Assembly: GCA_902628565.1 (NCBI GenBank)
Contig: CACONR010000003.1
Location: 30,722-94,721 of the forward strand
Length of the DNA: 64,000 nucleotides
DNA from: an uncultured Pelagibacteraceae bacterium
GTDB taxonomy: Bacteria; Pseudomonadota; Alphaproteobacteria; Pelagibacterales; Pelagibacteraceae
Reading direction: 5' to 3'
Made by a program: the position numbers and the translations under genes
The notes under the pieces: generated by a model
Database searches by the model: none
What the model was told of the DNA's origin: nothing
Seen by the model: only the letters and a program-made list of their open reading frames with translations
Part shown: positions 49,742-59,797 of the stretch, in pieces
Position numbering within the stretch: position 1 is the first letter of the stretch
Layout of the letters: each line of letters opens with the position of its first letter

Positions 49742-49816
49742 GCCTCGGTAGCTCAGGAGTAGAGCAGAGCCCTGAAAAGGCTTGTGTCGGAGGTGCGAAT
49801 CCTTCCCGAGGCACCA
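49742..49816 (+). tRNA. tRNA-Phe (GAA)
   Basis: A 75-nt tRNA with encoded CCA, 6 bases after infA. GCCTCGG pairs with CCGAGGC, D stem GCTC/GAGC, the anticodon loop CTGAAAA sits in stem GAGCC/GGCTT and the T loop is TGCGAAT. Position 55 is G rather than the usual T; the same change occurs in the Leu-like RNA at 59639. Confidence 0.94.
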
Positions 49817-50203: not shown

Positions 50204-50305
50204 ATGAAAAAAACTGAGTTAAATAAATTAGCGATCAAAAGTACTTTAAGAATAACTCTTGAAGGAACTAGTAGAGTTGCGCACGCTCACTTCCATGCTG
50301 GCTAA
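50204..50305 (+). CDS. Possible 33-aa microprotein
   Basis: In the 270-base gap between the terminator and tRNA-His, an ATG frame codes for 33 residues beginning MKKTELNKLAIKSTLRITLE and ending VAHAHFHAG. Its 3' part is much less AT-rich than the surroundings, and its stop lies in a small hairpin (GCTGGC/GCTAGC). No convincing ribosome-binding site is seen. It could instead be part of a non-coding RNA. The remaining sequence of the gap shows nothing else. Confidence 0.3.
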   Translation: MKKTELNKLAIKSTLRITLEGTSRVAHAHFHAG

Positions 50306-50374
50306 AGCTAGCGAATAATCATTTATATTATAATTTTAAATAACAACAAAATAAGATAAAACAAAAAAGGATAT

Positions 50375-50448
50375 GCCTTGATGGTGAAATAGTATCACGT
50401 CGGTTTGTGGATCCGAAGTCGTAGGAGCGTAACCTACTCAAGGTACCA
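50375..50448 (+). tRNA. tRNA-His (GTG), divergent
   Basis: A 74-nt tRNA with encoded CCA and anticodon GTG. GCCTTGA pairs with TCAAGGT (first pair G-T), D stem GTGA/TCAC, T stem GTAGG/CCTAC. The T loop is AGCGTAA rather than a TTC-type loop, the D loop lacks GG, and 31-39 is T-T. There is no paired G-1 with C73: the discriminator is A, a state known from part of the alphaproteobacteria. It ends 4 bases before hisS. Confidence 0.8.
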
Positions 50449-50452
50449 AAAA

Positions 50453-51850
50453 ATGAGTGAAAAAAATAAATTAATTCCTGGATTACCTTCAGGTTTTGAA
50501 GACAGATGGAATAAAACATTAATTCTCAAAAAAAGACTATTAAAAGTCATTGAGAATAATTTTATTAAATATGGTTTCGATCCTTTAGAAACCCCATCAT
50601 TTGAAATTGCAGAAAATATCGGATCCTTTCTTGCAGAGGATGATAGTAATCCTATGTCTGATGTTTTTTCTTTTAAAGATGGTGAAAAAAATATTACTCT
50701 TCGATATGATCTTTCCAGTCCTTTAGCAAGATTTGTTGCTCAAAATAATCAAGAACTTCCGTCTATATATAAAAGATATGCTATTCAAAATGTATTTAGA
50801 AATGAAAAGTCTGGAAATGCACGTTTCAGAGAATTTACTCAAGCTGATTGTGATATTGTAGGTAATGTTAATTCAGCTCAGGCAAACGCTGAATTGTGCA
50901 ATCTTGTTGCAAGTACTCTAATTGAATGTGGTTTAAATAAAGATCAGTTTACTATCAATGTTAGTAATAGAAAAATTATTCAAGGTTTAATTCAAGATTT
51001 AAAAGTTCCTGAGGATAAAACAATAAAAGTAATGAGAGCTATTGATAAATTAGACAAACCTGGTTTTGGTTTAAAAGGAGTTGAAGATCTTTTAAAAAAA
51101 GAGAGGAAAGATAAAAGTGGTGCTATTACCAAAGGTGCTAATTTAAATGACGACCAAGTTTCACAAATATTAGATTTTCTGAAGATTCAAGACTTAAACC
51201 AATTAAAAAAGAATTTCAAAAATCCATTAACTCTGGAGGGAATTAAAGAATTAGAGGAGTTATTTGAAGTTTTAAATTTTGGGAAATATGCTAACCAAGT
51301 AAGGACTAATTTTACAATTGTAAGAGGTCTAGATTACTATGATGGTTTTTGTGTTGAGACCAACTTAAATTTCAAAGCAAAAAATAATAAAGGTAAAGAA
51401 GTTGATATTGGAAGTATCTGCTCGGGTGGACAATACAATAAATTAATTTCAAGATTTAAAGGTGTCGATATACCAGGCACTGGTGTCAGTATTGGTGTTG
51501 ATAGATTGTTATTTGCAATGACACAATTAGATCAAGTAGAAATCGATCAACAGAAACCTGTAATTGTATGTGTGATGGATGAAAAATATTTAAAAAATTA
51601 CTACGAAATTTTAGAAACTTTAAGAAAAAATAATATCAATTCTGAGATTTTTTTAGATAGTAAAAAAAATCTTGGCAAACAATTAACTTATGCAAATAAA
51701 AGACAATGTCCCGTTGCAGTAATTTGTGGTGAAAATGAATTCAAAGATAATAAAATTACATTAAAGAATCTCCTTGGGATTAAAGGAGAAAATAATCAGA
51801 GTACATTTCCAAAGGAAGATCTTATCAATGAAATCAAAAAATATATCTGA
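50453..51850 (+). CDS. hisS: Histidyl-tRNA synthetase
   Basis: Class IIa synthetase of 465 aa. Motif 2 region is YAIQNVFRNEKSGNARFREF (about 106-125), the HisA-type motifs are VRGLDYYDGF (about 301) and GGQYNKLISRF (about 329), and an anticodon-binding domain closes the protein. The frame extends upstream to 50405, but that lies within tRNA-His; the ATG at 50453 gives the natural N-terminus MSEKNKLIPGLPSGFEDR. The gene is preceded by its own cognate tRNA and overlaps hisZ by 23 bases. Confidence 0.94.
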   Translation: MSEKNKLIPGLPSGFEDRWNKTLILKKRLLKVIENNFIKYGFDPLETPSFEIAENIGSFLAEDDSNPMSDVFSFKDGEKNITLRYDLSSPLARFVAQNNQELPSIYKRYAIQNVFRNEKSGNARFREFTQADCDIVGNVNSAQANAELCNLVASTLIECGLNKDQFTINVSNRKIIQGLIQDLKVPEDKTIKVMRAIDKLDKPGFGLKGVEDLLKKERKDKSGAITKGANLNDDQVSQILDFLKIQDLNQLKKNFKNPLTLEGIKELEELFEVLNFGKYANQVRTNFTIVRGLDYYDGFCVETNLNFKAKNNKGKEVDIGSICSGGQYNKLISRFKGVDIPGTGVSIGVDRLLFAMTQLDQVEIDQQKPVIVCVMDEKYLKNYYEILETLRKNNINSEIFLDSKKNLGKQLTYANKRQCPVAVICGENEFKDNKITLKNLLGIKGENNQSTFPKEDLINEIKKYI

Positions 51851-52880
51851 TAAGATTTTTAGGTCGGTTAAGTCCAGAGGATTTAAACACATCGAATTAC
51901 CTTCGGTTATTGAGGCTAATCACATTGTACAAAGATCTGGTGAGAGTTTTCGGAAATTTATATTTTCATTTATAGATAATACAGGTAATGAATTATGTCT
52001 TAGACCTGATCTCACAATCGTCTCATGTCTAAGATATTTAGAAAACAATTTAAAAGGTAAAGAGAAAATATTTTATAATGGTCAAGCCTTCAGAAAGTCT
52101 CAAAATAAAAAAGACTCAATAATTAGAAATCAAGTTGGTTTTGAAATTATTGGATCTCAAGATGAGAAAAATGATGACAAAGAAATAATAAATACATCTC
52201 TTAAATCTCTTCAAAATTTACAGTTTTCATCAGGCACTCTTACACTCGGCAACGTTGAAATCTTTAATCTTTTAATTTCAAAACTAGATATACCAAAAAG
52301 ATGGAAATTGAGACTCTCAAGACATTTTTGGAGAGAAGACTATTTTAATGATTTGCTTAAAAGATTAGAAACTAATTCTGATGTAGACCCAACAATTGTT
52401 GAGATAGATAAAAAACGTTATCTCAAAATGTTAAAAAATGATCAATCAATTATTGTTGCTAACAGAACAATAAAAGAAATTTTAGAGAGATTTGATAAAA
52501 AAATCAGAGATCCGAGAAGGGCCCGTGAAGGAAGAAATATTTCAAAAATTATTAAGGAATTTTTAAGAATTAAATGTCCAATTAATAAAGCTGCTTATGA
52601 ACTGAATAAATTTTTTAAGAAGAATAAAATTAATCTTATTGTTGATCAAAAATATTTTCCAATTTCAAAAAATAAGATTTCCAAACTTAATGTAGTTTTC
52701 TCAACAGCTTTTGGTAGGCAATTAGAATATTATACAGGAATGGTCTTTAAAATAGATATTAAATCCAATTCAAAAATTATTAATTGTTGTAATGGCGGTC
52801 GTTACGACAGGTTAATTTCTGATCTTGGTTCCAAAAAACAAATACCAGCAGTTGGTGCTGCTTTAAATCTTAATTATTAA
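51828..52880 (+). CDS. hisZ: ATP phosphoribosyltransferase regulatory subunit
   Basis: A 350-aa HisS-like paralogue lacking the anticodon domain. It has LRPDLTIVSCLRYLENN and FSTAFGRQLEYYTGMVFKI and CNGGRYDRLISDLG, the class II fold remnants found in HisZ. It is required by the short form of HisG, encoded 2 bases later. The start at 51828, with an AAGGAAG sequence nearby, is preferred over 51774, which is deep in hisS. Confidence 0.9.
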   Translation: MKSKNISDKIFRSVKSRGFKHIELPSVIEANHIVQRSGESFRKFIFSFIDNTGNELCLRPDLTIVSCLRYLENNLKGKEKIFYNGQAFRKSQNKKDSIIRNQVGFEIIGSQDEKNDDKEIINTSLKSLQNLQFSSGTLTLGNVEIFNLLISKLDIPKRWKLRLSRHFWREDYFNDLLKRLETNSDVDPTIVEIDKKRYLKMLKNDQSIIVANRTIKEILERFDKKIRDPRRAREGRNISKIIKEFLRIKCPINKAAYELNKFFKKNKINLIVDQKYFPISKNKISKLNVVFSTAFGRQLEYYTGMVFKIDIKSNSKIINCCNGGRYDRLISDLGSKKQIPAVGAALNLNY

Positions 52881-52882
52881 TT

Positions 52883-53569
52883 ATGAAGAATTTTATAAAT
52901 ATAGGAATTCCCAGTAAAGGACGATTAAGAAAAGATGTTTTGAAAATTTTTAATAAAAAAAAATTGAGACTTATTTCTGAAAGAGGAGAAAGGGACTTAA
53001 TTGGATCAATTAAGAATAAACGAAATATAAAAATTCTATATTTGCATGCGCGAGAGATTATTGAGAGATTAGGAGATGGCTCTTTAGATATTGGTTTCTC
53101 TGGTTTTGATTTACTTAAAGAAAGTGAAATTAATGTACAAAGTAAAATTAATGTAATCAAAAAATTTGATTTTGGAAAAGCTAATTTAGTAGTGGCAATA
53201 CCCGACCCTTGGATTGACGTTCAAACTATAGCTGATCTTGAGGAAATTGCTTTTGAATTCAGAGATAAAAAGAAAAAGAGGTTAAGAGTTGCAACTAAAT
53301 ACCCAAATTTAACTAGAGATTTTTTATTTTCAAAAGGGGTTACGCAATTTAAGCTAGTAGATAGTTTAGGTGCTACAGAATCTTATCCTTTCACAGGTTC
53401 AGCTGAACTCATTACTGATATAACCTCTACAGGTGAAACTCTTAAAGCAAACAATTTGCGTATTTTGAAAGATGGAGAAATTTTGAGATCTCAAGCCTGT
53501 ATCTTTATCTCAAAAAAAAATAGTAAAAAAAAAGGATTAAAAAATTTTATAAGATTACTTTCCAAGTAA
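52883..53569 (+). CDS. hisG: ATP phosphoribosyltransferase, short form
   Basis: A 228-aa catalytic subunit without the C-terminal regulatory domain, the form that works with HisZ in the first step of histidine synthesis. GIPSKGRLRKD (about 7-17), LDIGFSGFDLL and the PRPP loop DITSTGETLKANNL (about 183) are present. It overlaps the 3' end of a possible small convergent gene by 15 bases. Confidence 0.95.
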   Translation: MKNFINIGIPSKGRLRKDVLKIFNKKKLRLISERGERDLIGSIKNKRNIKILYLHAREIIERLGDGSLDIGFSGFDLLKESEINVQSKINVIKKFDFGKANLVVAIPDPWIDVQTIADLEEIAFEFRDKKKKRLRVATKYPNLTRDFLFSKGVTQFKLVDSLGATESYPFTGSAELITDITSTGETLKANNLRILKDGEILRSQACIFISKKNSKKKGLKNFIRLLSK

Positions 53570-59621: not shown

Positions 59622-59797
59622 TGAAAAAAAATTTATATGCTCAAATGGCGAAACAGTTAGACGCGACAAGAAAAACTTGTTCCACTGCGGTGGGTACCAG
59701 TGCAAATCTGGTTTTGGGCACTATAGATGACTATGTCTTGCGGGGAGAGATAGCTCCTCTTCCTGCAAAAAAAGGATTAGATGAAAAAAATAGATAA
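59621..59797 (+). CDS. Alternative 58-aa frame across the tRNA-like RNA
   Basis: An ATG frame begins on the last base of the preceding microprotein stop and reads MKKNLYAQMAKQLDATRKT onward to a lysine-rich end. Since bases 59639-59720 fold as a tRNA, coding is doubtful; it is recorded because the overlaps (TAATG) match the style of its neighbours, and the 59781 gene starts within it. Confidence 0.2.
   Translation: MKKNLYAQMAKQLDATRKTCSTAVGTSANLVLGTIDDYVLRGEIAPLPAKKGLDEKNR
59639..59720 (+). ncRNA. tRNA-Leu-like RNA with abnormal anticodon loop
   Basis: An 82-nt class II tRNA-like fold. Acceptor GCTCAAA/TTTGGGC (7 bp, one T-G), TGGCG...TAGACGC D arm as in tRNA-Leu, stem ACAAG/CTTGT closing a 5-base loop AAAAA, variable arm CCAC/GTGG, T arm ACCAG/CTGGT with loop TGCAAAT, discriminator A followed by CTA instead of CCA. 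U33 and a 7-base anticodon loop are absent. A 58-codon frame (59621-59797) runs through it, but its base composition fits a structured RNA better. It may be a decayed tRNA or a mimic. Confidence 0.6.

Follow-up and report, generated by a model that had tools for sequence, protein, structure and literature searches.

A SAR11 tRNA-His with an elbow probably built from compensated contacts between the D and T loops

The contacts 18-55 and 54-58 of the tRNA elbow, together with pseudouridine 55 (Psi55), are regarded as near-universal in tRNA. Of all tRNA modifications, Psi55 has been described as the one that is most universally conserved (PMC7912444). What, then, is to be made of a tRNA-His gene whose loops lack the usual motifs? 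Such a gene, with a GUG anticodon, lies at 50375..50448 (+ strand) of a 64,000-nucleotide stretch of DNA from an uncultured Pelagibacteraceae (SAR11) bacterium, hereafter called the window. The original prediction had listed (i) a T loop AGCGTAA; (ii) a D loop without GG; and (iii) a T31-T39 mismatch. All three are indeed present, within a core common to 96 GTDB genomes. The full layout is GCCTTGA-TG-GTGA-AATAGTA-TCAC-G-TCGGT-TTGTGGA-TCCGA-AGTC-GTAGG-AGCGTAA-CCTAC-TCAAGGT-A-CCA, all on the + strand: the D loop AATAGTA occupies 50388..50394 (A18 at 50391, G19 at 50392), the anticodon GTG 50407..50409 (T31 at 50404 facing T39 at 50412), and the T loop 50426..50432 (A54 G55 C56 G57 U58 A59 A60).

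The gene folds into a clean cloverleaf with a GUG anticodon and an encoded 3' CCA, and scores 50.6 bits against the Rfam tRNA model (cut-off 29), while an ARAGORN run made no call for it. Its acceptor end carries G1.U72 and A73 and lacks G-1, the preceding base being T; as predicted, the missing G-1:C73 corresponds to a known alphaproteobacterial type with A73 and no G-1 (PMC3937112). Regarding the elbow, G19 and C56 are retained and, of the two classical D/T contacts, 18-55 alone is altered (A18/G55). The intraloop pair 54-58 is changed as well (A54/U58), and the 15-48 pair is also unusual (A15/C48). The claim that both partners of a contact are altered together is supported, with the refinement that 19-56 keeps its usual bases.

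The reading preferred here is that this is very probably a working SAR11 tRNA-His, probably the only one of its organism, with an elbow built from compensated contacts. It draws on the sequence itself, its conservation, the covariation of the elbow bases, the sole copy in complete relatives and the absence of matches to certain modification enzymes. Among the points against it, an A54-U58 pair is non-isosteric with U54-A58, and A15/C48 is a further oddity.

A scan of GTDB genomes with a sequence pattern of the tRNA-His core gave 113 matches. A full tRNA fold is found in 96 of them, all in SAR11 genomes (independent single cells and MAGs, from Pelagibacteraceae and Candidatus Pelagibacter) and all upstream of hisS; the other 17 lie outside SAR11, show no tRNA fold and were set aside as chance matches (about 30 expected by our own estimate). 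The comparison with relatives that the original prediction had called for thus returned the same tRNA, in 96 genomes and only seven sequence variants, with odd bases that covary. Compensated pair changes in the acceptor stem, one such change in the T stem and a single D-loop base account for the differences among the variants; the anticodon arm with its T31/T39 mismatch is constant, as are the T loop and the other D-loop bases. The gap between the gene and the ATG of hisS is mostly 4-6 bases across SAR11 loci; in three loci (L103, L041 and L161) it reaches some 20-30 bases and contains a small inverted repeat.

As for copy number, two single-contig relatives of about 99% completeness that carry the window type (G063 and G123) have GTG in one tRNA gene only, all their Rfam tRNA hits having been read except one unparsed hit at a contig end of G123 (L295). 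The window's own genome (891,781 bases in 29 contigs, 73.6% complete) has GTG in no other of its 24 Rfam hits; the GC skew of the window was uninformative. The conditional claim that this might be the only tRNA-His gene is borne out in the complete relatives, from which it is taken for the window's organism, and the second canonical tRNA-His that might have undermined it was found neither there nor in the incomplete genome. Furthermore, the bases by which HisRS identifies its tRNA stay constant while the tRNA body changes: among 38 distinct SAR11 tRNA-His, G1.U72 is present in all 38 and A73 in 37.

The tRNA-His types do not follow their neighbors. There is strong disagreement between type and HisRS phylogeny, a single clade for the AGCGTAA type being rejected (p 4e-45, quick tree). 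When two genomes with unrelated tRNA-His genes (G022 and G234) are compared over about 4 kb on each side, the flank towards hisS shows 96% identity and the opposite flank 90.5%; between them lie about 240 unalignable bases that include the tRNA-His gene. Judging from these alignments and trees, the gene upstream of hisS has been replaced repeatedly in place. Four exact-pattern scans of IMG/VR viral contigs (two patterns for the window type, one for several U55 types and one for the canonical SAR11 type) gave no match, and phage vectors for the tRNA-His types, as far as exact patterns reach, were left without support and set aside.

A different origin can be considered, in which each tRNA-His type was remolded by an anticodon change from another tRNA of the same genome rather than exchanged between lineages. 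This proposal concerns origin and is compatible with the function argued for here. Two observations speak for it: tRNA-Val(GAC) has both loops in common with the window tRNA-His, and unrelated tRNA-His genes occupy the same locus in closely related genomes. Nevertheless, the window type hardly differs between lineages that share only 57% identity in HisRS, and these do not form one HisRS clade; such near-identity favors exchange for the window type, and remolding is thus a possibility that we regard as rather unlikely.

Whether the elbow was rewired or lost can be judged from the 38 distinct SAR11 tRNA-His. Positions 18 and 55 occur as G18/U55 in 21 of them and as A18/G55 in 16, with no mixed case; positions 54 and 58 occur as U54/A58 (26), A54/U58 (10) or G54/G58 (2), the first being retained in the T-loop types TGCGAAT, TGCGATT and TGCAACT; and 19-56 is G-C except in one tRNA-His (L245), which has U19/A56. 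This last tRNA, from genome G232, has a D loop AAAATTA (no G), a T loop AGAGTTA and G73, and the adjoining HisRS sits on a very long branch. On the HisRS tree, all 11 independent pairs for 18/55 and all 9 for 54/58 change in concert. These need not all be separate mutations, however: if whole tRNA types pass from one lineage to another, the tree counts too many independent events. The tRNA-Phe genes of the same loci behave in the same way (25 distinct sequences: 14 G18/U55, 11 A18/G55, none mixed), so that 18=A goes with 55=G and 18=G with 55=U in 62/62 classifiable distinct tRNA-His and tRNA-Phe.

It is very unlikely, on these data, that the elbow was lost in the manner of metazoan mitochondrial type II tRNAs, with loops that merely drift. 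The absence of both the GG and the TTC motif, in a small and A+T-rich genome, would agree with such a loss; against it stand the near-invariance of the loops across 96 genomes, the covariation of 18/55 and 54/58 without exception, and a 19-56 pair that stays G-C or swaps to U-A. Mitochondrial type II tRNAs resemble the window tRNA-His in having neither the GG nor the T-Psi-C motif, but they lose the D/T interaction (PMC7609411), whereas in SAR11 the 18-55 and 19-56 contacts covary; the description "mitochondria-like" therefore does not fit. Since 18-55 and 54-58 covary and 19-56 is kept or exchanged, the elbow of the SAR11 tRNA-His would have been rewired by compensation, and we read the matched loop changes as a single alternative mode of D/T-loop docking, arrived at more than once.

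With regard to geometry, an A18-G55 contact would replace G18-Psi55 and an A54-U58 pair would replace T54-A58, the standard G19-C56 being kept, and the rewired tRNA-His would still fold as an L. As for charging, HisRS would read this tRNA via the acceptor end (G1.U72 and A73) and the GUG anticodon, which remain constant while the elbow varies.

Altered loops are also found in other tRNAs. In the window, tRNA-Phe (GAA) at 49742..49816 (+ strand) has A18/G55, with a D loop AGGAGTA and a T loop TGCGAAT. The tRNA-Val(GAC) of G063 and G123 has D and T loops identical to those of the window tRNA-His, and the same loop pair occurs in tRNA-Thr(GGU) of four genomes from another alphaproteobacterial family (f10), a tally that is a lower bound because the gap allowed in that class-pattern search was too short for tRNA-Val. 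A tRNA-Thr(GGU) of G123 (L313) shows yet another T loop, GTCAGTA (G54/G58), together with a normal G18/U55; its counterpart in the window's genome has TTCGATT. Finally, a Leu-like tRNA remnant at 59639-59721, which ARAGORN calls tRNA-Phe(aaa), scores 33.5 bits, lacks U33 and CCA, and is probably a pseudogene.

The loops might have been freed to change by the loss of the enzymes that modify them. Matches to TruB, the Psi55 synthase, occur in 28/397 genomes of the SAR11 family, all in four genera (g8, g10, g12 and g15), and in 14/14 controls. In the window's genus (g1) no TruB was detected, not even in seven single-contig genomes that are 99-100% complete, nor was it detected in several other SAR11 genera; likewise, neither TrmA nor TrmFO scored above the cut-off in any of 12 SAR11 genomes. 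TruB is reported to require a T arm with GUUYRANYC (PMC7912444), a motif that the window tRNA-His does not have. Because TruB and the enzymes for m5U54 appear to be missing, the loop need not be their substrate, and the change of the elbow was probably eased in this way. In any case, genus g12 has TruB and yet its tRNA-His is already A18/G55, whereas in g6 and g9 no TruB was found and yet the canonical loops are retained; hence, altered loops do not require the loss of the enzyme, nor does that loss suffice to produce them. It may plausibly be a permissive factor that relaxes the loops, rather than a strict cause.

The surroundings of the gene bear on a further claim of the original prediction, namely that it might be a tRNA mimic controlling hisS. 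The tRNA is followed by (i) hisS (50453..51850, its ATG four bases after the CCA); (ii) hisZ (51774..52880, with the true start inside the ORF); and (iii) hisG (52883..53569, by family assignment), and is preceded by a short ORF, MKKTELNKLAIKSTLRITLEGTSRVAHAHFHAG (50204..50305), all on the + strand. This ORF ends in VAHAHFHAG, with its His codons just before the stop, and a six-pair hairpin GCTGGC-TAAA-GCTAGC (50297..50312, + strand) overlaps the stop codon. Equivalent ORFs with clustered His codons (HxHFHAG-stop, THRNCFHS-stop, HRHHFHAGC... and others) occur in nearly all SAR11 loci: at least three His in the last 14 residues are found in 139/175 loci, compared with 0/175 on the other strand and 3/1750 shuffles, and both His codons occur at each His position. 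Rfam gave no match for the leader region and, apart from the hairpin at the stop codon, a scan of it found no U run and no terminator. The ORF resembles a His leader peptide that would serve a putative tRNA-His-hisS-hisZ-hisG unit. Histidine leader-peptide attenuators, some of which precede hisS paralogues in bacilli (PMC2965389), likewise have a short ORF in which His codons cluster, located upstream of hisS; the SAR11 locus differs in that tRNA-His separates the leader from hisS and that no classical terminator could be found. Two further features were observed nearby. A related family (f2) has, as read by eye, a run of His codons before hisS with no tRNA between. A block conserved in relatives between leader and tRNA-His (50313-50374) contains ATCCACA, which in some genomes looks like a DnaA box, and the -10-like TAGTATAAAA/TAAGATAAAA.

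A tRNA mimic in the hisS leader, controlling hisS and playing no role in translation, would account for a tRNA end only four bases before the hisS start codon. It would leave the complete relatives with no tRNA-His that could be found, and it agrees poorly with the canonical tRNA-His genes at the same site in other SAR11 and with the retained CCA and identity bases; the separate His-rich leader ORF upstream is, moreover, a better candidate regulator. The mimic was rejected as highly improbable, given the conservation in 96 genomes and the sole tRNA-His of complete relatives. On the same grounds, a sequencing or assembly error (proposed for the T loop as a possible refutation) or a pseudogene, for which the missing ARAGORN call might speak, can practically be dismissed, the same sequence recurring in 96 genomes, which derive from separate single cells and MAGs, and being identical in dozens of them.

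Returning to the working tRNA-His with compensated contacts, a close precedent reportedly comes from suppressor tRNAs selected in E. coli by Doyon, Zagryadskaya and Steinberg (2004), in which a specific purine trap is said to match U55 with G18 and G55 with A18. The likeness to SAR11 extends to the 18-55 rule, a purine at 57 and a seven-base T loop. By contrast, those tRNAs came from a laboratory library with U54-A58, whereas the SAR11 ones are natural sole tRNAs, and the window type inverts 54-58 to A-U; the U54-A58 reverse Hoogsteen pair of the trap is absent from it. The SAR11 tRNA-His is thus novel as a natural, multi-lineage elbow variant, its 18-55 rule having been seen before, reportedly, in engineered suppressor tRNAs. 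The alphaproteobacterial tRNA-His described earlier shares A73, the lack of G-1 and G1.U72, while altered loops are not described in the part of that source consulted and the SAR11 elbow is changed too (PMC3937112). Eukaryotic tRNA-Ala and initiator tRNA also vary naturally at the 54-58 pair, but with a purine-purine A54/A58 (PMC7566577), in contrast to the A54/U58 or G54/G58 of SAR11, which mostly go with A18/G55.

A wider reading, which we hold to be fairly probable, is that SAR11 contains a major clade without Psi55 and m5U54 enzymes in which tRNA-His, -Phe, -Val and -Thr use alternative, compensated D/T chemistries (A18-G55, A54-U58, G54-G58 and U19-A56), and in which tRNA-His is a cassette repeatedly replaced between a His leader ORF and hisS. 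If true, nature would here have tried out, at the scale of populations, which tRNA elbows work. From a practical standpoint, ARAGORN, a common tRNA finder, misses an essential tRNA in SAR11 genomes of this type. Elbow variation in essential natural tRNAs, together with the lack of TruB and repeated gene replacement, merits follow-up, and the dozens of natural variants allow the rules by which elbows assemble to be tested directly. Near-universal contacts are replaced here in what is probably the sole histidine tRNA of highly abundant ocean bacteria. This suggests that even a component of translation believed to be fixed can be rewired without ceasing to function.
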